Shown here piece by piece: positions 858-34,101 of a stretch of 35,259 nucleotides of DNA (position 1 is its first letter; every line of letters begins with the position of its first letter). Below the pieces are notes generated by a model. The model ran no database searches. It was not told the origin of the DNA and worked only from the letters and a program-made list of their open reading frames with translations. The stretch spans positions 1 to 35,259 of the forward strand of contig SLNR01000030.1 of NCBI GenBank assembly GCA_007132905.1. The letters run 5' to 3'. This stretch comes from Candidatus Sumerlaeota bacterium. GTDB lineage: Bacteria; Bacillota; SLNR01. The translations under genes were made by a program, and so were the position numbers.

Positions 858-1033
858 ATAAAACATGTATAAATATCAAACATAAAAAATAAAGATGTAG
901 ATTGAGAAGTTGCTTTAATCTTGTTGGCAAATGATCTTCTTTATTTTTTAATAATAGAAAAAGGGGGAGTGCGAAACAAATTTTGACTTGCGACGGGCAT
1001 AGACCGGCACAAGAAAATGAAGGGGGAAAAAAC

Positions 1034-2587
1034 ATGAAAAAGAAATTGCTCGTTTTATTATTTATCATTGCTTTGATGGTTCCGATGGTTTCTGGCTGCG
1101 GGGGGCAGGCAACCCGGGCAGATGAATTGGTTATCGCTGTTCCCGAAGAGATCCAGTCTACGGATATGCACCAAATTACCTGGAACAACGTAGTGCATGA
1201 TTTGCTGTATGAACCCTTGGTTACTTTTGATTTGGACCTAGAAGAAATTCATCCGGCCGCCTGCAAATCATTTGAAGTGTCAGAAGACGGAAAGACGATT
1301 ACGTTTATTTTTGATGAAGAAACAAAATTTTCCAATGGCGATCCTTTAACGGCCGCCTCGGTTCAGGAATCTTTTGAAAGATACATGGAGGTCAGCGCTT
1401 ACGGGGATGATTTTGACCCGATCACGAACATGACGGTAAAAGACGACCAAACCCTGATGATTGAATTCAGTGACCCTCCGGCTTTCATCTGGCCTGTCTT
1501 TGCTACCGCTTACGGAGGCATCGTTCATACGGAGGCGGCAGAAGAGGTGGGCAGTGAAGAATTCGGGTTAGAGGCAGTCGGCAACGGACCTTATTATGTT
1601 GATGAATGGGTCCAGGGTTCGCACATTACTCTTTTGAAAAACCCTTATTATCAAACCTTTAATCCGTTTATCGAAGGAAAAGCAAATTTCGAAAAAATCA
1701 CGGTTCGGTTTATTCCGGAAGACTTTACCAGAGTAAGCGAACTTGAGGCAGGAACGGTGGATATTATCTTATCTGTTCCCGTAGAAAACATCAGCGATCT
1801 TGATTCCAATGAGAATATTCAGTTGTACGATTATCTTCAGACCGGTATCAACTATCTAGCTGTCAATACCGACGATCCCGTTCTTGGCGATTTGAATGTC
1901 CGTAAAGCCATGGCTTTGGGAATTGATAAAGAACAGCTTAAAGGGACTTTGGAGGATACGGTTGTCACACAGTACGGGCTTTTATCTTTGGCACAGCTTT
2001 GCTATGACGAAGAGCTGGAAAATGAGCTGGAAGAATTGTACTCTTATGATCCTGAACAGGCTCGGCTGCTTTTGATAGAAGCAGGCTTTACCGAGAAAAA
2101 CAGTGACGGGTTCTTAATAAAAGACGGCGAAGTGCTTGGATTTACTTTAATGGTCACCAACGATAATCCTTTCCTCAAGAAATCCGGCCCGGTAATCCAA
2201 AGTCAATTGGCTGACATTGGTATTCAAGTCGAATTAAACGAATATGACTCAAGGCATATCCGAACCCAGGTTTCAGAAGGTGATTTTGAGGTGGCCATGC
2301 GCTTTTACTGGTGGGCGGATCCGGATATATTGACTTATGTTTACGGCACGGGCAATCTACCCTGGTCATCGCAAGAAGTCGACAGTTTATTCAATATTGC
2401 TCGCTATGAAATGAATAGGGAGAGACGAACAGAGCTCTACAGCGTTGCACAGAAATTAGTGGTGGAAGAAATGCCGATTGTGCCGCTCTTTTCTGAGCGC
2501 CAATACATGGCTGCTCAAGATAATATAAGCGGTTTGAAAGTAGCTGTCGACGGCAAAGCTTATCTAGGCGATGTTGTCAAAGAATAA
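1034..2587 (+). CDS. Peptide/nickel-type ABC transporter substrate-binding lipoprotein
   Basis: Extracellular solute receptor of a family 5 (oligopeptide/dipeptide/nickel, SBP_bac_5) ABC importer, anchored to the membrane by lipid. The chosen start MKKKLLVLL lies behind a GGGGG ribosome site and gives 517 aa, normal for the family; the longer ORF start at 983 has no signal peptide. A positively charged, hydrophobic signal is followed by the lipobox VSGC with Cys22. Family features include DLLYEPLVTFD, the YYVDEWVQGSHITLLKNPYY segment, the VRKAMALGID motif and a C-terminal IVPLFSERQYMA segment. The gene heads an operon with a serine hydrolase, two permeases and two ATPases. Peptide is the likeliest ligand given the peptidase genes around it, but this family also carries nickel, haem or sugars. 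Confidence 0.9.
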   Translation: MKKKLLVLLFIIALMVPMVSGCGGQATRADELVIAVPEEIQSTDMHQITWNNVVHDLLYEPLVTFDLDLEEIHPAACKSFEVSEDGKTITFIFDEETKFSNGDPLTAASVQESFERYMEVSAYGDDFDPITNMTVKDDQTLMIEFSDPPAFIWPVFATAYGGIVHTEAAEEVGSEEFGLEAVGNGPYYVDEWVQGSHITLLKNPYYQTFNPFIEGKANFEKITVRFIPEDFTRVSELEAGTVDIILSVPVENISDLDSNENIQLYDYLQTGINYLAVNTDDPVLGDLNVRKAMALGIDKEQLKGTLEDTVVTQYGLLSLAQLCYDEELENELEELYSYDPEQARLLLIEAGFTEKNSDGFLIKDGEVLGFTLMVTNDNPFLKKSGPVIQSQLADIGIQVELNEYDSRHIRTQVSEGDFEVAMRFYWWADPDILTYVYGTGNLPWSSQEVDSLFNIARYEMNRERRTELYSVAQKLVVEEMPIVPLFSERQYMAAQDNISGLKVAVDGKAYLGDVVKE

Positions 2588-3614
2588 GGCTATGAAACAG
2601 ATTGAAAATACTGAAAAAAGAATAATGAGTGAGTTTGGTGAATACGAGCCCGGGGCGGCCCTGTTGGTGGCCGCAAAAGGCCGGGTGCTTTACAATCGAG
2701 GCTTTGGGCTGGCCGATTTGCAAGACGGCCGGCCTATTCAGTCCGACACGCCGTTTCTTATCGGTTCTGTGACCAAGCAGTTTACGGCAGCCGCGGTTTT
2801 GAAACTGGTGGGTGAAAAAAAGCTGGCACTGGAAGATCCGCTGCTTCGGCATTTCCCTTCTTTTTCTGCTTATGAAAAAGACATCCGCCTTCATCACCTG
2901 CTGACTCACACTTCCGGTATCAAAGAGTATCTGGGGGATGTTTTTTGGGAGGCGGCAGCCAAGCGGCCAAAAGATCTCAACCAAGAGGATGTACTCACTA
3001 TGATCTATGGCGATTTGGAGTTGGATTTTCCCCCGGGTACGGATTGGAAGTACAGCAATTCCGGTTATGTGATATTGGGCTCTTTGGTGGCGAAGGTGTC
3101 GGGTTGTTCTTTTGGACAGTATTTGAAGGAGAATTTCTTTGTCCCTTTGGGAATGAAGGATACGACTGCGCCTGCTTCACTAGGCGAAGCGGCGGAAAAT
3201 ACGGCCAAAGGCTATGAAAAAGACGGTCTAGGTTTTCGGCCGACTCCTTTTCATATGGGGACAGTAGGCTGGGGAGATGGAAATATCATCTCCACTACGG
3301 AAGATCTTCATCGGTGGAAAGAAGCTTTCTTTTCAAACCGCCTACCGGTGGAGACGTCATTGCTCAAAAAAGCGATCACTTCAGCAAGGCTTACAAACGG
3401 GCAAAAGACGCAGTACGGATACGGATGGTACATTGGCCGAAGAAGAGGATTAAAAGAGATTTGGCACAGTGGAGGAACACTAGGATTTACGGCACGGGCC
3501 AGCTTTTTCCCTAAAGCAGATGTTACGATGATCCTTCTTGCCAACAGACAAAATGCCCCTTTAGATCTCCTGCTAGGCGATTTAGCCGATGTTTTCCTGC
3601 ACGAAAATTTCTAA
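2571..3614 (+). CDS. Serine hydrolase, beta-lactamase/DD-peptidase fold (class C-like)
   Basis: Member of the beta-lactamase-related serine hydrolases (PF00144 type), which include D-aminopeptidases, esterases and DD-peptidases. The three active-site motifs are present: SVTK (66-69, nucleophile Ser66), YSN (161-163) and HSG (299-301). No signal peptide is visible, so the protein is probably cytoplasmic. It overlaps the upstream gene by 17 nt; a shorter start at 2592 is also possible and neither has a strong ribosome site, suggesting translational coupling. The catalytic domain is complete, but the same reading frame continues past the TAA stop for 65 more sense codons with typical protein composition (see the next feature), so a C-terminal domain has been cut off. 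Substrate unknown; its place in a peptide transporter operon suggests D-amino-acid peptides or cell-wall fragments. Confidence 0.85.
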   Translation: MLSKNKAMKQIENTEKRIMSEFGEYEPGAALLVAAKGRVLYNRGFGLADLQDGRPIQSDTPFLIGSVTKQFTAAAVLKLVGEKKLALEDPLLRHFPSFSAYEKDIRLHHLLTHTSGIKEYLGDVFWEAAAKRPKDLNQEDVLTMIYGDLELDFPPGTDWKYSNSGYVILGSLVAKVSGCSFGQYLKENFFVPLGMKDTTAPASLGEAAENTAKGYEKDGLGFRPTPFHMGTVGWGDGNIISTTEDLHRWKEAFFSNRLPVETSLLKKAITSARLTNGQKTQYGYGWYIGRRRGLKEIWHSGGTLGFTARASFFPKADVTMILLANRQNAPLDLLLGDLADVFLHENF

Positions 3615-3891
3615 TCGGGCGGCTATACAAAAGTCAAAAAAGAAGCTGTGGATTATTTGTGCGGAACCTACCGCGCAGATGATATGCAAACAGAGATTCG
3701 GTTTGATTGTCAAAACAATAAGCTGTTTATCTGGAGAAGGACCTATAAAGTCAATGGCTGGTTTTTACTTAAAGCGTTTCAAAAGGACTTTACCGAGCAG
3801 AAATGGGGCTGAAAGTGATACAAGGATCAAAGAAGAAGACGGGCAGAGAAAGATGATCATTGAATCAATCGGCCGGGTGATGGTGCTTTGA
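3615..3891 (+). pseudogene. Detached C-terminal domain remnant of the serine hydrolase
   Basis: Directly after the TAA at 3612-3614 the same frame stays open for 65 codons (through VDYLCGTYRADDMQTEIRF and LFIWRRTYKVNGWFLLKAF) to a TGA at 3810-3812. The protein-like sequence then resumes in the +1 frame as ESDTRIKEEDG and RKMIIESIGRVMVL before stopping at 3889-3891. This resembles the small beta-rich C-terminal domain found after the catalytic domain in many PF00144 proteins. One nonsense codon and one frameshift separate it from the active part. No ribosome site lets it be made on its own. A sequencing error is less likely to explain two independent lesions. Confidence 0.65.
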
Positions 3892-3963
3892 AAATAAGCG
3901 GATAAGAAAGATTGGATGTCGGACAAAAGTGATGGTGGAAAGGATTGGCAGGAGGGAAATGTT

Positions 3964-4911
3964 GTGAATGACATACTAGAATATGCGGCACGGCGTCTTT
4001 TTATGGGTTTGCTGGTGGTGGTGGCGGTTTCTATTTTGATTTTTTCTTTGATGCAGTTTATGCCGGGAGATCCGATCCAGATGATCTCTGATCCCCGGGT
4101 ATCCGAGCTGCGAAAAGCCCAACTAAGAGAAACCTGGGGTTTGGATCAACCGGTATATCTTCAGTATTTTTTCTGGATTGGCAGGATTTTACGGGGAGAT
4201 TTCGGCACCTCCATTGTCAGCGGACAGCAGGTTTTGACCATGATCAAGGCTAGGCTTCCTTATACTTTGATGCTGACCGGGACGGCCCTTCTGCTGCAGT
4301 ACATTATTGCTGTTCCTTTGGGTTTGATCGCGGCTGTAAAGCGAAACACCCGTCTTGACCATGCGGCGATCACTTTATCGGTAATTTTGTGGTCTATACC
4401 GACTTTTTGGCTGGGAATTCTTTTGATGTTGGTCTTTGCCATTCAGTTGAATCTGCTGCCTTTATCCGGTTTTAGTGGGATCCATTCGCTGATACTGCCG
4501 GTGGCGACAATGACACTGCCCTCTTTGGCAAGTGTGCTTCGCCTGACGCGCTCAGAAGTACTTGAAGTGCTTCGTGAAAGGTATGTGGTGACGGCGGCGG
4601 CCAAAGGACTGAAGAAAAACCGGGTCCTGATGGCCCATGTGCTGAGAAATGCATTGATCCCTGTAACGGTCATGTTCTTTTTGTACCTGCCCTGGTTGAT
4701 AGGAGGATCTGTTATTATTGAGAGTATCTTTGCTTGGCCGGGCATGGGTGGTTTGTTATGGAGATCCATTTCCCTGCAGGATTTTCCCGTGGTGCAGGGT
4801 ATTGTGTTGATGATCGCTCTGCTGACGGTTTTATCGAATACCTTGGGCGATATCTTAGCCGGACTTTTGGATCCAAGGGTTAGAATGGAACTGAGGGGGG
4901 AAATCCTTTGA
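3964..4911 (+). CDS. ABC transporter permease, DppB/OppB family
   Basis: Integral membrane permease of the peptide/nickel importer. The GTG start at 3964 is chosen because GGAGGG lies 7 nt upstream; the ORF-track ATG at 3916 would add 16 hydrophilic residues with no ribosome site. The 315-residue product begins with a cytoplasmic RRLFMG segment and a first membrane span, followed by the family motif FMPGDP. There are about six spans in all, and the EAA-like coupling loop RLTRSEVLEVLRERYVVTAAAKGL contacts the ATPase. The C-terminus has the usual DPRVR ending. It precedes the partner permease with a 4-nt overlap. The family is certain, the transported ligand is inferred from context. Confidence 0.92.
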   Translation: MNDILEYAARRLFMGLLVVVAVSILIFSLMQFMPGDPIQMISDPRVSELRKAQLRETWGLDQPVYLQYFFWIGRILRGDFGTSIVSGQQVLTMIKARLPYTLMLTGTALLLQYIIAVPLGLIAAVKRNTRLDHAAITLSVILWSIPTFWLGILLMLVFAIQLNLLPLSGFSGIHSLILPVATMTLPSLASVLRLTRSEVLEVLRERYVVTAAAKGLKKNRVLMAHVLRNALIPVTVMFFLYLPWLIGGSVIIESIFAWPGMGGLLWRSISLQDFPVVQGIVLMIALLTVLSNTLGDILAGLLDPRVRMELRGEIL

Positions 4912-5756
4912 CCTGGTTTATGGGACTGAGCTCTGTTTTAAAGGATGGATTAAAGAACAAATCGTTTTTAGTGGGAGCTTTGATCATCATAAGTATCTTG
5001 TTCATTGTCCTTTTTGCTGATGTCATTGCTCCTCACTCTTACCGGAGCATTCATACAGAGGATGCCCTTACAAGCCCTAACAGCGAATATCCGTTTGGCA
5101 CAGACAACTTCGGCCGTTGTATCTTCAGCCGGGTTATGTTCGGAGCAAGAATTGCCTTTAAGGTCGGTTTAGTAGTGGTGCTGATCGAAACTTTGATAGG
5201 GGTAACCTTGGGGCTTATTGCCGGATTTTACGGCAATAGGCTGGATAAAGTAATCTTATTCATCACGGATATGACCTGGTCACTGCCTCCGATTGTCATG
5301 GCTTTGGCCATTGTGACCATCCTTGGGCCAAGTCTGAACAATGTCATCGTGGCTATTGCGGTGGTTAGTTGGGCGCAATTTACCAGGATTGTCAGGGTCA
5401 AGACCCAATCCATTAAGAATATGCCGTTTATCGAGTCGGCAAAAGCTTTTGGCGAGTCAAACGCCAGTATTATTTGGCGTTATATTTTACCGAATGTGCT
5501 TTCGCCAATCATTGTTTTATCTACCTTGGCGCTGCCTGCCGCCATTTTGGCGACCACGGCTTTGGGTTTTTTGGGCCTGGGAGCACAGCCGCCTCTTCCC
5601 GATTGGGGTCTTATTTTAAGAGACGGCATCAATTATACGAGATCGGCCCCTTGGATATCCATTTTTCCCGGCTTGGCGATTGTATACACTGTGTTAGGTT
5701 TTAATCTTCTGGGAGAAGGCTTAAGAGATCTTCTTGATCCAAGACTTAAGGTGTAG
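4908..5756 (+). CDS. ABC transporter permease, DppC/OppC family
   Basis: Second permease of the importer, 282 aa. It starts at TTG 4908, overlapping the previous stop as TTGA, with a GGGGGG ribosome site about 7 nt upstream; ATG 4920 is the only near alternative. The protein has an N-terminal span (FLVGALIIISILFIVLF), the periplasmic motif YPFGTDNFGRCIFSRVMFGAR that marks the OppC family, and the coupling loop ending ESAKAFGESNASIIWRYILPN. The C-terminal GLRDLLDPRLK is also typical. It pairs with the upstream permease to form the translocation channel and is followed immediately by the ATPase genes. Confidence 0.92.
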   Translation: MTWFMGLSSVLKDGLKNKSFLVGALIIISILFIVLFADVIAPHSYRSIHTEDALTSPNSEYPFGTDNFGRCIFSRVMFGARIAFKVGLVVVLIETLIGVTLGLIAGFYGNRLDKVILFITDMTWSLPPIVMALAIVTILGPSLNNVIVAIAVVSWAQFTRIVRVKTQSIKNMPFIESAKAFGESNASIIWRYILPNVLSPIIVLSTLALPAAILATTALGFLGLGAQPPLPDWGLILRDGINYTRSAPWISIFPGLAIVYTVLGFNLLGEGLRDLLDPRLKV

Positions 5757-5766
5757 GAGGGAACGA

Positions 5767-6753
5767 ATGATGAAAACACCCTTATTATCGGTAAAAAATT
5801 TGACCATCGCCTATCAATCTCCCTCCGGATCTTTTGCGGCAGTGGATCATTTAAGCTTTTCTATTAAGGAGGGGGAAATTTTTGCCCTGGTGGGCGAATC
5901 CGGCTGCGGTAAATCAACCGCTGCATTAGGGTTTATGCGCCTAGTCCCCGAGCCGGGCTCTATTTGCAGCGGGGAGATTGAATTTGAAGGTAGAGATTTA
6001 CTTTCTTTACCAGAGAAGGAAATGGAGAAGGTCCGGGGCCGCCGTATGGGCATGATTTTCCAAAATCCTTTGGATTCTTTAAATCCGGTCTATACCGTGG
6101 GCAATCAAATTCAAGAGGCGGTTGTATTGGATAAAATAACAAAAAAAGAGGGAATGAAAAAGGCCATTGAGCTGCTCCGTGATGTAAGAATTTCCGATCC
6201 TTCCCATCGGGCTTCAAACTTTCCCCATGAACTCAGCGGCGGAATGAGGCAGAGGGTGATGATTGGCATGATGCTGTCAAGAAATCCAAAATTGCTGATT
6301 GCCGACGAGCCGACAACGGCTTTAGATGTCACTATACAAGCACAGATTCTTGATCTGTGCAAGGATTTGAAAGAAAAATACGGCACCTCCATCTTAATCA
6401 TCACCCATGATTTTGGTATTGTGGCGGAAATTGCGGATAAGGTGGGGGTCATGTATGCAGGAAAGCTAGTAGAAGTCGGTGAGGTGTTTAAGATTTTCGA
6501 TCAACCCCTTCACCCTTACACCCGCTTATTAATGAAAGCTCTTCCGCAGACCAGTAAAAAAGAGGGAAGACTTAAAACAATCCCGGGGACTGTCCCCAAT
6601 CTAATGAATCCTCCCACAGGGTGTCGTTTTCATCCCCGCTGTCCTTTTACCGAGCAAATTTGCAGAGAAAAAGCTCCTCCTATGGAATCAGGCGGAGAAG
6701 ATCATTACTTCGCCTGTCACCGAAAGGAGGCTGAGAATGGAAGCCATACTTGA
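5767..6753 (+). CDS. Oligopeptide ABC transporter ATPase, DppD/OppD family
   Basis: Cytoplasmic ATP-binding subunit, 328 aa from ATG 5767 (ATG 5770 is equally possible; AGGAGGG lies just upstream). Visible motifs are Walker A GESGCGKS (43-50), ABC signature LSGGMRQR (156-163), Walker B LLIADEP (176-182) and the switch His in ITHDF. The C-terminal extension has the peptide-ATPase signature GCRFHPRCPFTEQIC, known in this family and associated with an iron-sulfur site in some members. It overlaps the next ATPase gene by 17 nt. Together they form the heterodimeric motor typical of peptide importers. Confidence 0.93.
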   Translation: MMKTPLLSVKNLTIAYQSPSGSFAAVDHLSFSIKEGEIFALVGESGCGKSTAALGFMRLVPEPGSICSGEIEFEGRDLLSLPEKEMEKVRGRRMGMIFQNPLDSLNPVYTVGNQIQEAVVLDKITKKEGMKKAIELLRDVRISDPSHRASNFPHELSGGMRQRVMIGMMLSRNPKLLIADEPTTALDVTIQAQILDLCKDLKEKYGTSILIITHDFGIVAEIADKVGVMYAGKLVEVGEVFKIFDQPLHPYTRLLMKALPQTSKKEGRLKTIPGTVPNLMNPPTGCRFHPRCPFTEQICREKAPPMESGGEDHYFACHRKEAENGSHT

Positions 6754-7717
6754 AGTAGACCGCGTAAAAAAGCACTTTCACATGGCTAGAGGTTTGATCA
6801 AAAAGAAAATAGTAACCGTCAAAGCCGTGGACGATGTTAGTTTTCACATCAAAAGGGGAGAAGTCTTCGGGTTGGTGGGGGAAAGCGGTAGCGGAAAAAC
6901 GACCATGGCCAGGTTGATTTTAAGGCTGGTCGAACCGACTGAAAATTCCATCGCGCTGGAAGGAGAGGATATTTTTTCAGCCACCGGGCGATCATTGCAC
7001 CGGATTAGAAAAAAGATGAGCGTAGTGTTTCAAGATCCGGCGGCGTCGTTAAATCCCCGCAGTACTATTATGGATTCGCTGCTGCGGCCCCTTCATGTTC
7101 ACAGGATTTCTGCCGGGGAGTCAGCCGAGAGGATCGAAGAAGTTACAGGTCAAGTCTCTTTGGGAAAAGAACTCCTTCATCGCTATCCCCATCAATTAAG
7201 CGGCGGTCAGCAGCAGCGGGCCAGTATCGCCCGGGCACTGGTCCTGCGGCCAAAACTTATGGTCCTGGATGAGCCGACATCGGCTCTTGATGTTTCTGTA
7301 CAGGCCCAGATTTTAAATCTGTTTCTTGATCTGCAAAACACTTATGACCTTACCTATTTGTTCATCACTCATAATTTGTCAGTGGTGCGCTATATATGCG
7401 ATCGAGTGGGTGTGATGTACCTGGGCAAGATGGTTGAAATTGCTCCGGTGGATCGTTTGTATGCTCATCCGCGCCACCCATACACTATGGGACTGATATC
7501 GTCAGCACCGGTTTTAAATCCCCATTTGCGGAGCCGAAAGAAGATCTTTCTTCAAGGGGATCCGCCAAGTTTGGCAAATCCACCTGAAGGCTGCTGTTTG
7601 TCTTCACGTTGTCCTTACGCAGATGAGGGCTGCTTTGCTGAAGTTCCTCCCCTAAAAGAAATTGATTGCGGCCATTGGGTGGCGTGCCGACGCAGTAGTG
7701 AAATTTCAGAGAAATAA
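6737..7717 (+). CDS. Oligopeptide ABC transporter ATPase, DppF/OppF family
   Basis: Second ATP-binding subunit, 326 aa. ATG 6737 has an ideal AAAGGAGG site 6 nt upstream inside the preceding gene. Motifs: Walker A GESGSGKT (48-55), signature LSGGQQQR (154-161), Walker B LMVLDEP (174-180), switch region FITHNLSVV, and a C-terminal Cys-containing tail CCLSSRCPYADEGC that marks the peptide-transport subfamily. It is the last gene of the operon; a strong terminator follows within 20 nt. Confidence 0.93.
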   Translation: MEAILEVDRVKKHFHMARGLIKKKIVTVKAVDDVSFHIKRGEVFGLVGESGSGKTTMARLILRLVEPTENSIALEGEDIFSATGRSLHRIRKKMSVVFQDPAASLNPRSTIMDSLLRPLHVHRISAGESAERIEEVTGQVSLGKELLHRYPHQLSGGQQQRASIARALVLRPKLMVLDEPTSALDVSVQAQILNLFLDLQNTYDLTYLFITHNLSVVRYICDRVGVMYLGKMVEIAPVDRLYAHPRHPYTMGLISSAPVLNPHLRSRKKIFLQGDPPSLANPPEGCCLSSRCPYADEGCFAEVPPLKEIDCGHWVACRRSSEISEK

Positions 7718-7871: not shown

Positions 7872-9053
7872 GTGAAGATCACACCGGACATTGACGAAAA
7901 AGAAGCAAGGCAGCTTTTAGAGGAAATGATCGGCATCAATTCGGTGAATCCTGATCTTGCACCAGGCGGCGAAGGCGAAAAAGCGCTGGCTGAATACATG
8001 AAGGAAAAATTTGAATCCATAGGGATCGCTGCGGAAGTAGTTTCACTCGGGGGCAGCCGGGCCAATGTGGTGGCCCGTCTTTTAGGAAAACAGGAAGGGA
8101 AAACCCTTATGTTAAACGGCCATTTGGATACAGTCGGACTAGAGGGGATGGAGGGAGACCCTCTTAAAGCAAAGATGGAGGGAGATCGGGTTTATGGACG
8201 TGGAGCCGGGGATATGAAAGCGGGTCTGGCGGCCATTTTTTTGGCCATGAAAGCTCTAAAAGAACAGAATCTTCCCCCTCAAGGAAAAGTCCTATTTACC
8301 GGGGTGGCCGATGAAGAGTATAAAAGCATTGGCACAGAAGATGCCGCCCGAAAATATGAAGCGGATGGCTGCATTATCACCGAACCGAGTCACGGGGACA
8401 TTGTGGTGGCGCACAAGGGATTTATCTGGATGGAGATTGATATCTACGGGAAAGCTGCTCACGGAAGCAATCCTCAAGAAGGCATCGATGCCATTGTAAA
8501 AGCGGGTAAATTTTTGACGGCCATGGAGGATTACGGTAAAAATACACTGACCCAAAGATCTCATCCTCTGCTTGGTTCTCCCAGCATCCATGCTTCGCTG
8601 ATTAAAGGCGGCAGGGAGTTAAGCACTTATCCCGACCACTGTTGTGTATCGCTGGAAATTCGCACCCTGCCCCAAGAGGAGCCAGAGAAATATCAACAAG
8701 AGATCCAGGATTTGATTGGCCGGATTCAAAAGGAAGATCCTGACTTTAAAGGCCGGGCGGCGATTACTTTTTCTCGCCCGCCGATGGAAGTGGACCCCTC
8801 TGAGCCGATTGTACAAAGCATGATTGCCGGGGCGAGAGAGGCCGGCCAAAAGGAGCCATCGCAGGTTGGCAAAAGCGGCTGGCTGGACTCGGCCATTCTG
8901 CAGGTAGCTGGTATTCCGACCGTCATTTACGGTCCGGCAGGGGCCGGTTATCACGGGGCGGTGGAATACACCGAGCTGAGCAGCATTGTCGAGGTAGCGA
9001 AAGGCCTTTATGTGGCGGCTCACGATTTTCTTGGAGGAGGTTCTAAGCGATGA
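7872..9053 (+). CDS. M20 family metallopeptidase (ArgE/DapE/CPG2-like)
   Basis: Zinc-dependent amidohydrolase or dipeptidase, 393 aa. All expected metal and catalytic positions of the family are seen: H84 and D86 in NGHLDTVG, bridging D114 in GRGAGDMKAG, catalytic E148 and metal ligand E149 in ADEEYKS, E171 in ITEPSHGD, and C-terminal H361 in GYHGAVEY. The lid/dimerisation domain lies between about 185 and 300. GTG 7872 is the start, with GGGGCGG upstream. No signal peptide, so cytoplasmic. The substrate cannot be told from sequence: acetylornithine, succinyl-diaminopimelate, N-acyl amino acids or dipeptides are all possible. The position after a peptide importer favours a peptide. Its stop overlaps the start of the next gene (ATGA). 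Confidence 0.88.
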   Translation: MKITPDIDEKEARQLLEEMIGINSVNPDLAPGGEGEKALAEYMKEKFESIGIAAEVVSLGGSRANVVARLLGKQEGKTLMLNGHLDTVGLEGMEGDPLKAKMEGDRVYGRGAGDMKAGLAAIFLAMKALKEQNLPPQGKVLFTGVADEEYKSIGTEDAARKYEADGCIITEPSHGDIVVAHKGFIWMEIDIYGKAAHGSNPQEGIDAIVKAGKFLTAMEDYGKNTLTQRSHPLLGSPSIHASLIKGGRELSTYPDHCCVSLEIRTLPQEEPEKYQQEIQDLIGRIQKEDPDFKGRAAITFSRPPMEVDPSEPIVQSMIAGAREAGQKEPSQVGKSGWLDSAILQVAGIPTVIYGPAGAGYHGAVEYTELSSIVEVAKGLYVAAHDFLGGGSKR

Positions 9054-10222
9054 AGAAGCAGTTTGCTTGGCTTATTTCTTGTCTTTTGATATTAGCCCTG
9101 CTATTAACAAGCTGTGCGGGTTTCGATAAGAAAGAGCAGGACCAAAATGAATTTTATAATCTGGGGGTTGACACAGAAAGGCTGCCTCTTCATGTAACCG
9201 AGGCATCTCTTTTTGATCTTTCTTACGGTGATCTTGAAAAAAGGATCGGGCTGGCCGGGAAAAATCTTGAGTCAAAGGATATGACTCAGCTGTCTATCCC
9301 GTTTTTGGCCCATCTTTCTTATGACACGAAAACCCTCTGGCCAAGTGAAAAAGCAAAGCCCCGGAATTTTTCACCACAGACATGGCTGGATGAAGCCAAA
9401 GACCCGGGGCTCGGGATAAAAAAACTCCATGAAAACAACATTACCGGGCAAGGGGTGCAGGTGGCGGTGCTGGGCAGCCCGACTCCCCTTTTGGACCATC
9501 AAGAGTTTCATGACAATTTCTTGTATTCTTACGTCAGATCAGATACTGAATATGATGAACTGCTTGGTTTTGAGGGAATGGTTGCTGCTTCGATTTTGGC
9601 AGGGAAACAATGCGGAGTGGCCAAAGAAGCCGTCGTACACTATTTTTCGGTTACTGATTCAGGACCCGGGTTTTCTTATTACTGTCAAGCGGTAAAAATG
9701 GTCTTAGAGTCCAATCAAGGGCTTCCCAAAGAAGAGCAAATCCGCCTGATTTCAATATCTGACGGTATTAGTGAAGAAGATGAAGGATGGCTTGATTGGG
9801 AACTTTGTCTAGAGAAGGCCAAAGAAGCAGAAGTGGATATCCTATATTTTAACAATGCGGCCCTAAATGGTTTTTTTTGGGGAGGATGTCCTCCTTATAA
9901 AGACAGAAATGACCCCAAAAACTATCGGCCCGCCGAGGTGCTGTCAGGAATCGTGATTGATAAGGATGCCGTGTTGGTCCCGGGGGATTATCGGACCACG
10001 GCTCTTCCCACCGGAGAAGATGTTTACATGTATTGGGGAGAGGGTGGCTTTGGATGGGCCATTCCCTATCTTTCGGGACTTTGTGCCCTCGGCTGGCAGG
10101 TAAATTCCGACTTGACTCTGCAGGAGATGTTGGAAATGATGAAGGAAACAGCTTATATTTCCGCTAACGGATGGAAAATTATCAACCCTCCTGCTTTCGT
10201 GGAGCAGGCAGCTTCGAAATAA
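9050..10222 (+). CDS. Lipoprotein with subtilase-like fold lacking the catalytic triad
   Basis: A 390-aa exported lipoprotein: charged start, hydrophobic core and lipobox LTSC with Cys22. The body resembles a subtilisin-type (S8) domain in order and spacing. GQGVQVAVLGSPTPLLDHQEF matches the first catalytic block (usually V-I-D-T-G followed by H-P-E-F), EGMVAASILAGKQCGVA matches the His block (H-G-T..VA..IAG), and GFGWAIPYLSGLCALG matches the Ser block (G-T-S-M-A-T-P..AG..AL). The catalytic positions read Gly142, Glu175 and Gly335, so Asp, His and Ser are all replaced. Proteolysis is therefore not expected; binding of peptide or wall material is one guess. It is translationally coupled to the M20 peptidase by a 4-nt overlap. 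The fold assignment is by eye and should be checked by structure-based search. Confidence 0.6.
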   Translation: MKKQFAWLISCLLILALLLTSCAGFDKKEQDQNEFYNLGVDTERLPLHVTEASLFDLSYGDLEKRIGLAGKNLESKDMTQLSIPFLAHLSYDTKTLWPSEKAKPRNFSPQTWLDEAKDPGLGIKKLHENNITGQGVQVAVLGSPTPLLDHQEFHDNFLYSYVRSDTEYDELLGFEGMVAASILAGKQCGVAKEAVVHYFSVTDSGPGFSYYCQAVKMVLESNQGLPKEEQIRLISISDGISEEDEGWLDWELCLEKAKEAEVDILYFNNAALNGFFWGGCPPYKDRNDPKNYRPAEVLSGIVIDKDAVLVPGDYRTTALPTGEDVYMYWGEGGFGWAIPYLSGLCALGWQVNSDLTLQEMLEMMKETAYISANGWKIINPPAFVEQAASK

Positions 10223-10300: not shown

Positions 10301-10831
10301 GTGGTGGATCCTGCAGATTTTTTTCATACCGGTTATAATTTTTTCAGTTATGTGGAAAAATTGGGGGATGACGGCTTAAAAATGTCTTCACGTTATGATA
10401 GATGGAATCTGCGTGAAGAGGACCGATCTTTTTTCGGGGGGATAAATCAACCTGTTCATATATTGGTTTTATCAGAAGCCTGGTGTCCTGACTGTGTGAA
10501 CAATGTGCCCATTATAGCCAAGTTGTCGGAAACCAATCCCGATATCAAAGTCATGGTTTTCCCCAGAGATGATTATCCAAAAATCATGGATTTATACGAA
10601 ACAGACAATAAGCGCATTATTCCTACGGTCATTTTTTTTGATCAGCATTTCAATGAAATAGGTCGGTGGATCGAACGGCCGGCTTCTGTTCAAAAGATTT
10701 TGGAAGAAGGAACGGAAGAGGAGAAAAAAGAAGTGAAAAAGAGGTACATGGAAGGTGCGTATATTGATGAAGTGGTGGGTGAGATAAAAGAAATTATTTC
10801 GAAAGGACTTGAAGATGCTGCAGAGCAGTAG
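10301..10831 (+). CDS. Thioredoxin-like protein with CPDC motif
   Basis: A 176-aa protein with a thioredoxin fold. VHILVLSEAWCPDCVNNVP contains the redox-type CPDC (Cys62 and Cys65), followed by IKVMVFPRDD and the cis-proline region RIIPTVIFFD, then a charged, helical C-terminus rich in Glu and Lys. This arrangement resembles the bacillithiol-associated or 'thioredoxin_9' type proteins rather than classical TrxA. There is no signal peptide, so it is cytoplasmic. AGGAGG at 10291-10296 lies 4 nt before GTG 10301 and 7 nt before GTG 10304; the second is perhaps the true start. Partner unknown. It sits last in the peptidase block. Confidence 0.75.
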   Translation: MVDPADFFHTGYNFFSYVEKLGDDGLKMSSRYDRWNLREEDRSFFGGINQPVHILVLSEAWCPDCVNNVPIIAKLSETNPDIKVMVFPRDDYPKIMDLYETDNKRIIPTVIFFDQHFNEIGRWIERPASVQKILEEGTEEEKKEVKKRYMEGAYIDEVVGEIKEIISKGLEDAAEQ

Positions 10832-11246: not shown

Positions 11247-12917
11247 ATGACGATTTCTGGAGCACAAGCGGTGCTTAAGTGTCTTGAAAAGGAAGAAGTT
11301 GAAGTTGTTTTTGGTTTTCCGGGAGGAGCCGTGCTCCCGCTGTACGATGCATTGTATGATTCTTCTCTTCGTCATATACTGACAAAGCATGAGCAGGGAG
11401 CGGTTCATGCGGCGGATGGTTATGCCCGGGTAACCGGCAAAACAGGGGTATGCTTCGCCACTTCGGGACCGGGAGCCACCAATTTAGTTACAGGGATTGC
11501 CAATGCTTATATGGATTCGGTTCCTTTAGTGCTAGTAACAGGTCAGGTTCCGACCGGTTTTATCGGGACCGATGCTTTTCAGGAAGTAGATATGACGGGG
11601 ATTACTGCCCCCATCACCAAACACAATTATCTAGTGAAAAAGGCCAAAGACATCCCCAGAATTATGAAAGAGGCTTTTTACATCGCCCGGACGGGGAGGC
11701 CGGGTCCCGTATTGGTCGATATACCTGTAGATGTGAGTTCTCAGAAAATGAATTATGCCTACCCGAAAGAAATTGATCTTCCAGGATACAGACCGACAAA
11801 AAAAGGCCATCTTCTTCAGATCGAACGGGTGGTTGAGGCAGTAAAAGAGGCGGCCAGACCGGTGATCGTGGCCGGAGGAGGTGTTATTTCCGCCAATGCT
11901 TCCGATCTCTTGTTGACTTTTGCAAGGACGCAGAACATGCCCATTGCCAATACCATGATGGGGCTAGGAAGTGTACCGGCGGATCATCCCCTGTTTTTGG
12001 GGATGCTCGGTCTCCATGGAAGGCCGGCGGCCAATTACGCTGTTTCAGAGTCGGATCTTCTTATCGCCGTCGGGGTTCGTTTTGGAGATCGAGTGATCAG
12101 GAAGGTGCAGGGTTTTGCTCCTAAAGCGAAAATAGTTCACATGGATGTGGATCCGGCTGAAATCGGTAAAAATGTCCATGTCGATGTCCCGGTGGTGGGC
12201 GATGTGGGGTGTATTCTATCGGATTTAAATGAAAGGATTCCTATAGAGGCGGATACCAGAGAGTGGATTGAGATGGTAAGCGTGTGGAAACAGGAACAAA
12301 AAACAAAGGCGGCAGACAAGCCAATGCATCCCAACAGGATCTTGGCTGAATTGGCTTCTGTGGTGGACAGCGACTGTATCATTACAACCGATGTAGGACA
12401 GCATCAGATGTGGACGGCCCAGCATTATCCTTTTCAAAAGCCAAGAACCTTGGTCTCTTCCGGAGGGCTCGGGGCCATGGGATTTGGCCTCCCGGCGGCT
12501 ATTGGAGCGCAGATAGGCAGTCCGGATAAAACCGTCGTCAATATTTCCGGAGACGGAAGTTTCCAAATGAATCTACAAGAATTAGCAACCGCCTTAGAGT
12601 ACGATTTGCCTATCAAAGTATTGATCATGAACAATCGGTGCCTGGGCATGGTCCGTCAGCTCCAGGAGTTTAAGTGCTCGGGCCGCTACAGCCAGGTTAT
12701 GACAAAAAAGGTGCCTGACTTTGCGGCCATTGCGCAAGCTTACGGGGCGCTTGGGATGAGGGTAAAAGATCCCGACCAGATTCGACCTGCGATAGAAGAA
12801 GCCATTTCCCATCCGGGGCTTTCAGTTATTGACTGTTGTATTGACACAAGTGAAAATGTGCTTCCCATGGTTCCGGATGGGGCTGCTTTATATGAAATGA
12901 TACAAGAAGGAGGGTGA
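11247..12917 (+). CDS. ilvB: Acetolactate synthase large subunit, copy 1 (Leu at the 2-ketobutyrate selectivity position)
   Basis: Thiamine-diphosphate enzyme that condenses two pyruvates to 2-acetolactate, the first common step to valine and leucine (556 aa, usual length). It has the N-terminal pyrimidine-binding domain with the activating Glu in KHEQGAVHAADG, a central FAD-binding domain (about 190-340), and the C-terminal pyrophosphate domain with GDGSFQMN..LATALEYDLPIKVLIMNN. The segment MVRQLQEF carries Leu472 where most anabolic enzymes have Trp (E. coli AHAS II Trp464, Arabidopsis Trp574). Changing that Trp lowers preference for 2-ketobutyrate and gives herbicide insensitivity in well-studied enzymes. 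AGGAGGTG precedes ATG 11247. Controlled by the Val-type T-box directly upstream; followed by ilvN. Confidence 0.95.
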   Translation: MTISGAQAVLKCLEKEEVEVVFGFPGGAVLPLYDALYDSSLRHILTKHEQGAVHAADGYARVTGKTGVCFATSGPGATNLVTGIANAYMDSVPLVLVTGQVPTGFIGTDAFQEVDMTGITAPITKHNYLVKKAKDIPRIMKEAFYIARTGRPGPVLVDIPVDVSSQKMNYAYPKEIDLPGYRPTKKGHLLQIERVVEAVKEAARPVIVAGGGVISANASDLLLTFARTQNMPIANTMMGLGSVPADHPLFLGMLGLHGRPAANYAVSESDLLIAVGVRFGDRVIRKVQGFAPKAKIVHMDVDPAEIGKNVHVDVPVVGDVGCILSDLNERIPIEADTREWIEMVSVWKQEQKTKAADKPMHPNRILAELASVVDSDCIITTDVGQHQMWTAQHYPFQKPRTLVSSGGLGAMGFGLPAAIGAQIGSPDKTVVNISGDGSFQMNLQELATALEYDLPIKVLIMNNRCLGMVRQLQEFKCSGRYSQVMTKKVPDFAAIAQAYGALGMRVKDPDQIRPAIEEAISHPGLSVIDCCIDTSENVLPMVPDGAALYEMIQEGG

Positions 12918-16171: not shown

Positions 16172-16200
16172 GAACATACAGAAAATGAATAAGAAAAGTA

Positions 16201-16497
16201 ATGATGGGAAGAGTAAGTGCTGGAGGTACAGCATACAGAGAGCCGAGTAGCTGAGAGTCGGCGCTGGCAAACAGTATTGAAAATCGTCCCTGAACTGCAG
16301 GCTGAAAGAATCCCTGGGGATTTAAAGTAAGCCGTGCCGGAATTCTCAGGCAGCCGTTATCATGCCGGGGTATGCGGCTTGTCCAAGTACCTTGTGAGGC
16401 ATGCACCGAAAGGTGTATGTAAAATAGGGTGGTACCGCGATAGGAATATCCTCTCGCCCCTTGTTTAAAAAAGCATTGGGGGTGAGAGGTTTTTTTT
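16201..16497 (+). ncRNA. Internal T-box leader with apparent isoleucine specifier (ATC), upstream of second ilvB
   Basis: Second tRNA-dependent attenuator, between ilvD and the second ilvB. It has the stem I element AGAGAGCCGAG, the specifier region GAAAATCGTCCCTGAACTGC with ATC (16283-16285, Ile), a perfect T-box AGGGTGGTACCGCG (16426-16439), and a terminator CCTCTCGCCCC (16450-16460) pairing with GGGGGTGAGAGG (16478-16489) plus eight T. Only about 30 nt separate it from ilvD and I see no promoter there, so it probably acts on read-through transcripts from the upstream ilv genes or from a promoter inside ilvD. Confidence 0.88.
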
Positions 16498-16549
16498 ATG
16501 GAAGGCAGTGCTGAAAGAGGCATTTACATAAGAAGGAAAGTTGAGGTGC

Positions 16550-18220
16550 ATGAAAATGACTGGTTCAGAAATCTTAGTTCGTTGTTTAGAAGAGTTGGAG
16601 GTCGATACGGTGTTTGGCTACCCGGGAGGGGCCGTTATCCCTTTGTATGATGTGTTGGTGGAAAGCGAAAAAATCCGCCATGTAATGGTCCGTCATGAAC
16701 AGGCGGCTGCTCACGGGGCCGATGGCTATGCTAGGGTAACGGGGAAAACCGGAGTATGCATTGCTACTTCCGGTCCGGGAGCGACGAATTTGGTTACGGG
16801 GATCGCTACTGCCTATATGGACTCTATTCCCATGGTGGCCATCACAGGACAAGTTCCGGTGTCGATGTTAGGGAAAGACTCTTTCCAGGAAGTGGATATT
16901 ACCGGGATTACTCTTCCCATCACTAAGCATAATTATCTTGTCAAAGATGTTAAAAACTTGACAAAAACTATCCGGGAAGCGTTCTATATTGCCTCTTCCG
17001 GCAGGCCGGGTCCTGTCTTGATTGATTTGCCAAAAGATGTCTTGACCGATCAGTGCCGCTATACTTTTCCGAAGGTAAAAGAACTGCCTGGTTATAAGCC
17101 TACCTACCAGGGACACCCGACTCAGATGAAAGGGGCGGCAGAAGTGATGGCTTCTGCTAAAAGGCCGATTATTTACGCCGGCGGCGGAGTCATTCACAGT
17201 CAGGCACATCGAGAATTGCTGGCCCTGGCAGAATTGCTGTCCATTCCAGTTACGACAACACTTATGGGAATGGGGGCTTTCCCGGGAGACCATCCGTTAT
17301 CTTTAGGCATGCTAGGTATGCACGGTACTCCTACAGCTAATTTTGCGATCGGCGAAGCCGATTTGGTCATTGCTTTGGGAGTAAGATTTGATGACCGGGT
17401 CACCGGAAAGTGTGAGGCCTTTGCCAATAAGGCGAAAATCATCCATGTGGATATCGATCCTGCCGAAATCGGAAAAAATGTTGGTGTGGATATTCCGATT
17501 GTCGGAGATGTGAAAAATGTGCTCAATACTTTTTTGGTACAGCTTTCAAAGCAGCAGCAGCGAGAGTGGCTGGAGCAGATTCGCAATTGGAAAGAACAAT
17601 ATCCCATGGAATACAAGAAAGACGGTCAATTGAGACCTCAAATGGTGGTACAGAAGATTTGCGAGGCAACAAATGGTGAGGCTATTATTACAACTGAAGT
17701 CGGTCAGCACCAAATGTGGGCGGCTCAGTTTTATAAGTTCAGTCAGCCTCGGTCGTTTGTATCTTCAGGGGGTTTGGGAACCATGGGATTTGGATTGCCG
17801 GCCACTGTGGGGGCTCAAGTGGGCTGCCCTGACCGCACTGTCTTCAATATTTCCGGCGACGGCAGTTTCCAAATGAACGCGCAGGAGCTTATGACGGCCG
17901 TTGCGAATAAACTACCTATAAAGATTGCTATTCTCAACAATCAGTATCTGGGAATGGTCAGGCAGTGGCAGGAAATGTTTTGTGACCGGCGATATGCTTG
18001 CACCGATGTTTCCGACCAACCGGATTTTGTGAAGCTAGCCGAAGCCTATGGGGCAGTAGGAATGAGAATAGACAAAGAAGATGAGGTGGAGGAAGCTCTT
18101 CAAAAAGCCATGCAGATAGACGACCGGCCTGTTGTGATGGATTTTCGCGTTGAAAAGGAAGAGAATGTGCTGCCTATGATTCCGGCGGGTAAAACCGTAG
18201 AAGATATTATTTTAAGTTAG
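16550..18220 (+). CDS. ilvB: Acetolactate/acetohydroxybutyrate synthase large subunit, copy 2 (Trp at selectivity position)
   Basis: Paralogue of the first IlvB with the same three-domain plan: RHEQAAAHGADGYARVTGK at the pyrimidine domain, a central FAD domain, and GDGSFQMNAQELMTAV..ILNNQ at the diphosphate domain. The start MKMTGSEIL (ATG 16550) matches the usual family N-terminus; TTG 16541 from the ORF track and ATG 16556 are alternatives. It keeps the canonical Trp473 in MVRQWQEM, unlike copy 1, which predicts better use of 2-ketobutyrate and thus a role in isoleucine synthesis. That agrees with the Ile-type T-box in front. It has no small-subunit gene of its own next door. Confidence 0.94.
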   Translation: MKMTGSEILVRCLEELEVDTVFGYPGGAVIPLYDVLVESEKIRHVMVRHEQAAAHGADGYARVTGKTGVCIATSGPGATNLVTGIATAYMDSIPMVAITGQVPVSMLGKDSFQEVDITGITLPITKHNYLVKDVKNLTKTIREAFYIASSGRPGPVLIDLPKDVLTDQCRYTFPKVKELPGYKPTYQGHPTQMKGAAEVMASAKRPIIYAGGGVIHSQAHRELLALAELLSIPVTTTLMGMGAFPGDHPLSLGMLGMHGTPTANFAIGEADLVIALGVRFDDRVTGKCEAFANKAKIIHVDIDPAEIGKNVGVDIPIVGDVKNVLNTFLVQLSKQQQREWLEQIRNWKEQYPMEYKKDGQLRPQMVVQKICEATNGEAIITTEVGQHQMWAAQFYKFSQPRSFVSSGGLGTMGFGLPATVGAQVGCPDRTVFNISGDGSFQMNAQELMTAVANKLPIKIAILNNQYLGMVRQWQEMFCDRRYACTDVSDQPDFVKLAEAYGAVGMRIDKEDEVEEALQKAMQIDDRPVVMDFRVEKEENVLPMIPAGKTVEDIILS

Positions 18221-24729: not shown

Positions 24730-24878
24730 CTCTTATCAAGAGAGGTGGAGGGACTGGCCTGATGAAACCCGGCAACCGGTTCTATATGAATACGGTGCCA
24801 AATCCTGCAGAACAGTGATTCTGGGAGATGAGAGAATGATTAGAGGCAACTCTTCCATGAATGGGGAGTTTTTCTTTT
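24730..24878 (+). ncRNA. SAM-I (S-box) riboswitch with terminator
   Basis: The aptamer runs from CTCTTATCAAGAGAGGTGGA to GGGAGATGAGAG (24730-24834). It contains the invariant elements GGACTGGCCTGATGAAACCC, GGCAACC and GGTGCCAAATCCTGC. The expression platform is a hairpin AACTCTTCCAT/ATGGGGAGTT (24848-24870) with a T-rich tail. In known members SAM binding promotes termination, so the methionine synthase genes are expressed when SAM is low. Confidence 0.95.
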
Positions 24879-29380: not shown

Positions 29381-30097
29381 GTGGTTGCTAAGGTGATCAG
29401 GGGGAAGGATTTTTGGGAAGGGATGCTGCAGTTTTTGTATCCGCAGCAAGAGAAATGTTTGTGCTGTGAAAAGGGCTTAACGGAGAATGAAGAACTTATT
29501 TGTACTTTCTGTGTCCAGGAGATTCTGTGGGTGCCTCCTTTTTTGTGCCAAAAATGCGGCCGGGTATTGAAGGATCAGGTTGATTTATGTTATCAGTGTT
29601 GTGTTACGGATTATTCATTTGATGTATGCCGAGGTATCGCTGTAAGCAAATCGGCGGCAAAGCTTCTTTTTTCGCTTGAGCATACGGGCTGCCATCGTGC
29701 GGCTGAGTTTATCAGCCGACAAATGGCAAAGAAACTTCATGAAGTTAGTTGGGATGATCCTGTTATCATTCCTGTTCCGTCAAAAAAGAATAGCAACAAT
29801 GCAGATTGTCCCATTGAGATGCTAGCTGAAAAAATTGGTTTGGCAGCAAATGTGAGCGTGTATAAGGATGTTTTATGTTTTGAGGCATTTTTTGAGAGCC
29901 GGCAGAAAAAAGATCAAGGCGGTTTAATTGACCAAAACAGCCGTTATTTTGTGAAAAAGCCCGAAATGATTAACGGTAGAAACATTGTGCTCATTGATGC
30001 AAAATGGGGGGAAGGTGCGGTAATGACCCTTTGTTCTGCACTGCTAGGCAAAGCTGGCAGTAAAAGGATCGGCGGTCTGGTTTTTTTGACGGTATGA
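29381..30097 (+). CDS. ComF-like protein with degenerate phosphoribosyltransferase site
   Basis: A 238-aa protein with the layout of the ComF family: an N-terminal zinc-ribbon region (FLYPQQEKCLCCEKGL, ICTFC, FLCQKCGRVL, LCYQC: four Cys pairs), a middle part with IPVPSKKN, and a C-terminal phosphoribosyltransferase-like fold. The normal PRPP-binding motif (two acidic residues followed by a TTG-A-T loop) is replaced by VLIDAKWGEGAVM, so phosphoribosyl transfer is doubtful. ComF proteins are linked to DNA uptake. Start unclear: GTG 29381 has its ribosome site too close, while GTG 29393 (AAAAGGGTGG upstream) or ATG 29423 may be used. It stands alone between metK and selA. Confidence 0.7.
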   Translation: MVAKVIRGKDFWEGMLQFLYPQQEKCLCCEKGLTENEELICTFCVQEILWVPPFLCQKCGRVLKDQVDLCYQCCVTDYSFDVCRGIAVSKSAAKLLFSLEHTGCHRAAEFISRQMAKKLHEVSWDDPVIIPVPSKKNSNNADCPIEMLAEKIGLAANVSVYKDVLCFEAFFESRQKKDQGGLIDQNSRYFVKKPEMINGRNIVLIDAKWGEGAVMTLCSALLGKAGSKRIGGLVFLTV

Positions 30098-30327: not shown

Positions 30328-31752
30328 ATGGCGGGAAAAGATATCAGTAAGGAGTATCGAAAACTTCCGTCCGTAAATGCTTTGCTGCAGGAAGAAAGCG
30401 TTCAAGATCTTCTAAAGGAGGGCTGTGCCCGGTTTTTGCTAATTGATTCGATCCATGATGTTTTGGAGAAAAAGCGAACGGCCATAAAGAAAAAGCACGA
30501 AGCAGCTGAAAGAATTATTGTCCCCGAGATTTCAGAAATAGCCGCCGAAGTGGCTCAGTCGGCGAAAAAGAAACAAAGAAGATTCTTAAACCCCGTCATA
30601 AATGCCACGGGTGTTATACTGCATACCAACCTTGGAAGAGCAGTTTTGCCGAAAAGAGCGGTAGAAGCCATCCAAAGGGCGGCCGGTGCGTATACAAATT
30701 TAGAAATCGATCTAGATACGGGGAAAAGAGGACTTCGCTATCAAAATGTTGAGTCTCTTTTGTGTAAATTGACGGGTGCTGAAGCTGCCTTGGTGGTTAA
30801 TAATAATGCGGCAGCTGTTTTTTTATCGCTGGCAACTTTGGGCAAAGGAAAGGAAGCTATTGTGTCAAGAGGGCAGCTGGTGGAAATCGGGGGTTCTTTT
30901 CGCATACCGGATGTAATGGAACAAAGCGGAGTCAAACTTGTTGAAGTAGGGACAACCAATAAGACGCATGTGCAGGACATACAAAACGCCATTGGACCCG
31001 AGACCGGCCTTTTGGTTCGCGTTCACACAAGCAACTATCGGGTAGTGGGTTTTACAGAAGAAGTAGAGCTTAAGGAAATGGTTGAATTGGGATGTCAATA
31101 TCAGATTCCTGTTTTGGACGATTTGGGCAGTGGGTGTTTGCTGGATTTAACAGAACATGGAATGGAAGAGGAGCCGCTGGTCCAAAACAGCGTCAAAGCC
31201 GGAGCAGATCTAGTCACTTTCAGCGGTGATAAATTGTTTGGGGGGCCCCAGGCAGGGATTATTCTGGGAAAAAGAAAATATATTGAAAGAATAAAGAAGA
31301 ATCCTTTACTTAGGGCGTTTCGCATTGATAAGCTAACGCTGTCAGGACTCGAGGCAGTGCTTGTTTTGTATCTAGAAGACGAAGAATGGGAAAAGACTCT
31401 GCCAGTATATCAGATGCTTTTTCGCTCATATGAAGATACAAAAAAAGCCGCTGACTCCCTGGCTCATGGGCTCAGGGAAGTTTGGCTGCAACAGGATGTG
31501 GTAGAAACTCAACAAGCTACTTCGCGACCGGGTGGCGGGTCTCTCCCCGAAACAGAAATTATGAGCGAAGTTGTTGTTTTAAAGGCCAGAAACCTGTCTG
31601 CTGGAGAGCTAGAGCGCAGTCTTAGAGAACATGTTCCCCCTATCCTTTGCCGGGTGAGCCGCGATTTTGTGATTATTGACCCTAGAACACTCATTGAAGG
31701 GGACAAAGAGGAGATTATCAGGGCTTTTGAGCTGATGGAAAATGGACAGTAG
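30328..31752 (+). CDS. selA: L-seryl-tRNA(Sec) selenium transferase
   Basis: Pyridoxal-phosphate enzyme that converts seryl-tRNA(Sec) to selenocysteyl-tRNA(Sec) using selenophosphate; 474 aa, usual. The N-terminal tRNA-binding part begins YRKLPSVNALLQEE. INATGVILHTNLGRA and the cofactor lysine in FSGDKLFGGPQAG (Lys302) are family signatures. GGAGG lies upstream of ATG 30328. The 230-nt gap before it is AT-rich and shows no clear promoter. selB follows 29 nt downstream and tRNA-Sec lies beyond that; selD is not in the window. Confidence 0.96.
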   Translation: MAGKDISKEYRKLPSVNALLQEESVQDLLKEGCARFLLIDSIHDVLEKKRTAIKKKHEAAERIIVPEISEIAAEVAQSAKKKQRRFLNPVINATGVILHTNLGRAVLPKRAVEAIQRAAGAYTNLEIDLDTGKRGLRYQNVESLLCKLTGAEAALVVNNNAAAVFLSLATLGKGKEAIVSRGQLVEIGGSFRIPDVMEQSGVKLVEVGTTNKTHVQDIQNAIGPETGLLVRVHTSNYRVVGFTEEVELKEMVELGCQYQIPVLDDLGSGCLLDLTEHGMEEEPLVQNSVKAGADLVTFSGDKLFGGPQAGIILGKRKYIERIKKNPLLRAFRIDKLTLSGLEAVLVLYLEDEEWEKTLPVYQMLFRSYEDTKKAADSLAHGLREVWLQQDVVETQQATSRPGGGSLPETEIMSEVVVLKARNLSAGELERSLREHVPPILCRVSRDFVIIDPRTLIEGDKEEIIRAFELMENGQ

Positions 31753-31781
31753 CTGTAGTAAGGTGTGCGGGAGGTTTTTAT

Positions 31782-33713: not shown

Positions 33714-33977
33714 TCGATGGACGGTTTCTAATAAATGGCCTATGTATATGGAGGATAAAATAAGGCATTGAACTAGCAATGATAATGGTTTCATTTAATA
33801 GTCTTATAGAAGAAAAACGTGAATAGCCCGGCCCTCAAAGGCTTAGAAAAAGAGAGAACCAATCAATAAAATGAAGTTAAGGATCTGATACAAAAAGGTA
33901 TGATGAAATGAAACCGAAATATCCTGCGAACTGTCATTACCACGGATGTGAATTATCTGGAAAAAGAAATAGCCATA

Positions 33978-33986
33978 TGCTATAAT
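33978..33986 (+). promoter_or_regulatory. selC: Extended -10 promoter of the tRNA-Sec gene
   Basis: TGC directly before a perfect TATAAT (33981-33986) fits the extended -10 (TGn) class. A weak -35, TGGAAA, lies 17 nt upstream. Initiation near 33993 would leave about 12 nt of 5' leader before the tRNA. Confidence 0.65.
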
Positions 33987-34004
33987 TCGGTTAGGGATCA
34001 TCAA

Positions 34005-34101
34005 GGGGGCGGATTGGGCCTGGTGGTTCATCTGGACTTCAAATCCAGTGCGAGGCAGTGATCCTGTCTTGGGTGGGTTCGATTCCCACACGCTCCCGCC
34101 A
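34005..34101 (+). tRNA. selC: tRNA-Sec (anticodon UCA)
   Basis: A 97-nt tRNA with the hallmarks of bacterial tRNA-Sec. The acceptor GGGGGCG pairs with CGCTCCC (one G-T). A long D stem of six pairs (TGGGCC/GGTTCA) has a 4-nt loop. The anticodon arm is CTGGA-CTTCAAA-TCCAG with TCA. A long variable arm has seven pairs around TGATC. The T arm is GTGGG-TTCGATT-CCCAC. Discriminator G is followed by encoded CCA. The eighth acceptor pair, usual in bacterial tRNA-Sec, would be a G-A mismatch here. It follows selA and selB. Confidence 0.96.

Follow-up and report, generated by a model that had tools for sequence, protein, structure and literature searches.

In bacteria, subtilase-family pseudoproteases are known best from a single case, CspA and CspC of Clostridioides difficile. 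CspC keeps the catalytic Asp, has Thr in place of His and Gly in place of Ser, and acts as a signaling pseudoprotease, and in the Csp family the subtilase domain carries a jelly-roll insert of about 130 residues (PMC6636752). CspC and CspA form a heterodimer (PMC12880746). Here we describe a putative lipoprotein from a Candidatus Sumerlaeota bacterium (assembly GCA_007132905.1) that is predicted to share the fold and in which all three catalytic residues are replaced. It is encoded on contig SLNR01000030.1, of which positions 1 to 35,259 were analyzed and are called the window throughout; the locus is laid out in Table 1.

Table 1. Features of the pseudoprotease gene and its neighbors, in window positions.
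Feature	Position	Strand	Basis
Oligopeptide/nickel-type substrate-binding lipoprotein of ABC importer	1031..2587	+	Family-library match
Class C beta-lactamase / D-aminopeptidase-like serine hydrolase	2571..3614	+	Family-library match
Importer, two permease and two ATPase subunits	3916..7717	+	By sequence
M20 ArgE/DapE-family deacylase	7872..9053	+	TIGR01910 above its cut-off
Putative S8-fold pseudoprotease lipoprotein, 390 aa	9050..10222	+	ORF, predicted structure, fold search, profile match
Signal peptide and lipobox (LLTS-C22)	9050..9115	+	Sequence by eye
Family-specific N-terminal module ahead of S8 core	9248..9409	+	At expected prodomain position; no I9 match
Former catalytic Asp, Gly142 (GGC)	9473..9475	+	MAFFT and HMM alignment
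Former catalytic His, Glu175 (GAG)	9572..9574	+	MAFFT and HMM alignment
Former catalytic Ser, Gly335 (GGA)	10052..10054	+	MAFFT and HMM alignment
Thioredoxin_9-type protein, downstream	10301..10831	+	Pfam

The open reading frame is real and intact, with an ATG start, 390 uninterrupted codons, and a codon composition like that of its neighbors (codon-fit index of 0.77 versus 0.76 to 0.79; GC1/2/3 of 0.56/0.37/0.45). Its signal peptide and lipobox bear out the lipoprotein assignment made in the initial annotation and suggest that the protein is membrane anchored and extracytoplasmic. Lipobox-like N termini were seen by eye in further family members, e.g., G311, G424, and G435, and most members with an assigned N terminus are, again by eye, lipoproteins or have an N-terminal hydrophobic segment. 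The module ahead of the S8 core contains a conserved FDxxTxWP motif, which reads YDTKTLWP (residues 91 to 98) in the window protein. An I9-type prodomain, typical of many but not all S8 enzymes, found no match in any of 30 family members.

By prediction, the window protein has a complete subtilase (S8) fold. The AlphaFold model has a pLDDT of 88.1 and a pTM of 0.86, and all 50 of the matches listed in a PDB fold search are S8 folds (subtilases, peptiligases, and PatG/PagA-type proteins; probability 1.00), consistent with the subtilase-like blocks first recognized by eye and not with an unrelated fold. Searched alone, the protein matched no Pfam family, PF00082 included, and nothing useful in NCBIfam. 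Against a profile built from 22 triad-intact homologues only, it scored 278 bits (E = 5.5e-87, one target), while the best of 1,000 shuffles reached 8.7 bits. Pfam Peptidase_S8 is matched by 28 of the 30 aligned family domains, and the family profile finds solved subtilisin-like proteases, with best E values of 1.9e-21 (9ues) and 3.4e-21 (3afg); it is through the family that sequence homology to peptidase family S8 is evident. In NCBIfam, the family comes closest to the type VII secretion mycosin (TIGR03921), which 26 of 30 members match with E values down to 5.2e-9. This falls far short of an equivalog assignment; the window protein itself scores 13.2 bits (E = 0.036), and the cut-off is 278.75. 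Judged from sequence, the family is a membrane-anchored S8 lineage without a model of its own, distinct from the Csp lineage, and it exposes a blind spot of family models, none of which recognizes its most altered member.

The triad columns were placed twice, with MAFFT and with hmmalign against the intact-only profile. Both alignments put Gly142, Glu175, and Gly335 in the Asp, His, and Ser columns, in agreement with the replacements named in the initial annotation; an off-by-one assignment of the His position to Phe174 was rejected, as Glu175 occupies that column in both. Over the 30 domains, Asp is present in 28, His in 25, and Ser in 23, with the complete triad intact in 22. The window protein thus lacks the Asp-His-Ser triad required of an active S8 peptidase, and, because all three catalytic residues are replaced, the alignments indicate that the S8 mechanism of peptide cleavage is not available to it. 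The AAGN motif, which carries the oxyanion-hole Asn, is present in five canonical S8 outgroups and absent from the window protein and all aligned family members, although the exact residue register is uncertain. This family-wide change in the oxyanion region, together with PatG/PagA macrocyclases and peptiligases among the fold matches listed, would fit a protein that is still an enzyme, with rearranged or different residues performing ligase, cyclase, or unrelated chemistry in the old cleft. We regard this as very unlikely, as there is no nucleophile at the triad positions and the replacements vary among triad-less members (Glu, Gln, Arg, or Gly for His; Gly, Asn, Asp, or Ala for Ser), none being conserved.

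Relatives occur in about two dozen genomes at 26 to 35% identity to the window protein; in the alignment of 30 domains identity is 26 to 34%, rising to 35% over the tree columns. The distribution is patchy, with one or a few carrier genomes in several classes. Whole-genome searches turned up relatives elsewhere in the phylum, in classes other than that of the window genome, and a class-level search found no other genome in the latter class. When genome contigs were searched by peptide pattern, the window protein as query returned no relatives, and the G040 relative returned itself and one MAG labelled Sedimentisphaerales. A plasmid search gave no match, and viral contigs gave two matches that, at 23% identity, are too distant to place. 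Tandem family copies are found in G311, G435, and G517. In G311 (L037, 5499 to 9280), three triad-intact copies lie in tandem and a fourth lies elsewhere in the genome. In G532 the copies are fused, one protein (L088, 5958 to 8606) containing two S8-like domains, each with an incomplete triad.

Triad deficiency affects eight of the 30 domains, and the residues at the Asp/His/Ser positions differ among them: G/E/G in the window copy, A/E/N and D/H/A in domains 1 and 2 of the G532 protein, D/Q/G in G233, D/H/N in G415, D/H/D in G417a, D/R/S in G413, and D/G/G in G517b. A tree built without the triad columns needs seven triad changes, at least six of them forced by well-supported branches, and the triad therefore appears to have been lost about seven separate times within the family. 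The change of Ser to Gly is common to the window copy and G233, yet G233 sits within a clade of otherwise intact members, so the two losses are most simply separate. Such repeated loss suggests that proteins of this family may bind rather than cut. A broader and tentative extension is that binding or sensing is the main use of the subtilase fold throughout the lineage, with catalysis dispensable and the triad hence lost some seven times; if true, the window protein would stand at the end where catalysis is gone altogether.

Loss of catalytic residues could also mark an inactive, decaying copy without function. Broken copies do exist elsewhere in the family: that of G053 is frameshifted, and that of G180 is a fragment containing a stop. 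The window copy itself ranks with the most divergent members and has lost 16 of 65 other conserved positions. The 49 positions that it keeps (75%) are nonetheless the same share as in triad-intact G417b, and its uninterrupted frame, normal codon usage, good structure prediction, and retained signal peptide and lipobox argue against decay. Sequencing error is unlikely because the changes from His to Glu and from Ser to GGA each need more than one base change. Triad loss also recurs, and in one case selection could be gauged: the triad-less G233 copy gives pairwise NG86 dN/dS values of 0.07 to 0.11 against three triad-intact congeners, rough values as dS is saturated (2.2 to 3.0), and these congeners give 0.12 to 0.15 among themselves. 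On these rough values, G233 is under purifying selection and is not decaying. For the window copy, which stands on a long branch (1.62), selection is not directly measurable, as it has no close relative. The initial annotation had held that close homologues with an intact triad would point to simple decay; intact homologues do exist, but none is closer than about 35%, and recurrent independent loss, purifying selection on G233, and the state of the window copy itself weigh the other way. We therefore find decay improbable.

Taken together, the fold, the triad replacement, the intact reading frame, the recurrent loss, and purifying selection on G233 favor retention for binding. The window protein is probably an extracytoplasmic, lipid-anchored S8 pseudoprotease kept as a binding protein, Csp-like in its way of working without being a Csp member, and a binding role is likely. 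A peptide or protein ligand would sit in the subtilase cleft or elsewhere on the surface of the fold. The observation behind the initial annotation is thus confirmed, and its interpretation is partly supported.

The genomic context was part of that interpretation. An Opp/Dpp-type importer cluster (1031 to 7717) is followed after a 154-base gap by the M20 gene, whose stop codon (9051 to 9053) overlaps the ATG of the S8-like gene at 9050 in the 4-base sequence ATGA. The overlap and the position downstream of the importer are both real, and the predicted M20 peptidase is an M20 protein better called an ArgE/DapE-family deacylase. In the source genome, the ligand might be a compound that the importer and M20 enzyme encoded with it take as substrate. 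As a functional clue, this neighborhood does not extend to the family: in the fetched loci neither an M20 gene nor a peptide importer adjoins any other member, with one weak M20-like ORF lying about 4 kb from the family gene in L089. The neighbors are instead TldD/TldE-like proteins and aldehyde ferredoxin oxidoreductase in G233, FtsK and BacA in G388, and DUF4932 and PspA in G435. As neighbors differ between members, the operon cannot alone fix function, and a peptide-uptake reading specific to the source genome is a guess.

The same linkage bears on whether the protein is a regulatory or scaffold partner that binds and gates an active peptidase, either the M20 enzyme or the canonical subtilisin of the source genome (contig C134), rather than a peptide receptor. 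Besides the ATGA overlap, such a partnership would fit the active (DHS) and inactive (DGG) copies side by side in G517, the presence of both kinds in G417, and the comparable CspC:CspA heterodimer (PMC12880746). Linkage to M20 is not conserved, and G233, G413, and G415 each have one family copy found, which is triad deficient. Furthermore, the window protein carries an export signal, whereas M20 enzymes of the ArgE/DapE type are normally cytoplasmic. We think gating of a peptidase rather unlikely for the window protein and prefer a binding protein.

Other parts of the window have features of their own. Two acetolactate synthase large subunits (11247 to 12917 and 16541 to 18220) are encoded in one cluster, flanking ilvN, ilvC, and ilvD, and a T-box leader (16192 to 16464) precedes the second ilvB copy. 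The frameshifted G053 copy lies between ilvD and ilvB (L044, 3356 to 12999), and the window copy is also near ilvBNCD; this may be chance, and a link of the family to ilv genes was judged compatible with chance. A SAM riboswitch (24730 to 24834) precedes a methionine-synthase region, and selenocysteine machinery (selA-like, selB-like, and tRNA-Sec genes) is grouped at 30328 to 34101. A ComF-like protein (29381 to 30097) has, by eye, DAKWGEGAV in place of a phosphoribosyltransferase loop of the DDVxTTGAT type and is possibly a degenerate enzyme.

How does this protein stand relative to known subtilases? With Peptidase_S8 proteins (PF00082) such as subtilisin and Tk-SP (3afg), it shares the predicted fold and the order of the three blocks, but it lacks the triad, and neither the AAGN oxyanion motif nor a recognizable I9 prodomain is present in its family. 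A Csp-type sensor of spore germination might be considered, given that the source genome encodes Spo0A and that the S8 pseudoprotease CspC has a similarly altered triad (PMC6636752). This is extremely unlikely: at 390 residues, with its block spacing, the window protein has no room for the jelly-roll insert, and it is a predicted lipoprotein; no CspB partner was found, the one Pfam-recognizable S8 protein found in the source genome (94% complete) being a canonical secreted subtilisin without Csp features. Csp proteins have a prodomain and the insert and are soluble spore proteins with a role in SleC activation, whereas the window protein has neither prodomain nor insert and appears to be lipid anchored; unlike CspC, it has also lost the Asp, and it belongs to another S8 lineage. 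A separate lineage with independent triad losses offers natural replicates for asking what a non-cutting subtilase fold does. Among known proteins, CspC and CspA come closest in their way of working: in them a subtilase fold with replaced catalytic residues serves a non-catalytic role, and, as with Csp, some genomes that carry the window protein's family contain both active and inactive paralogues.
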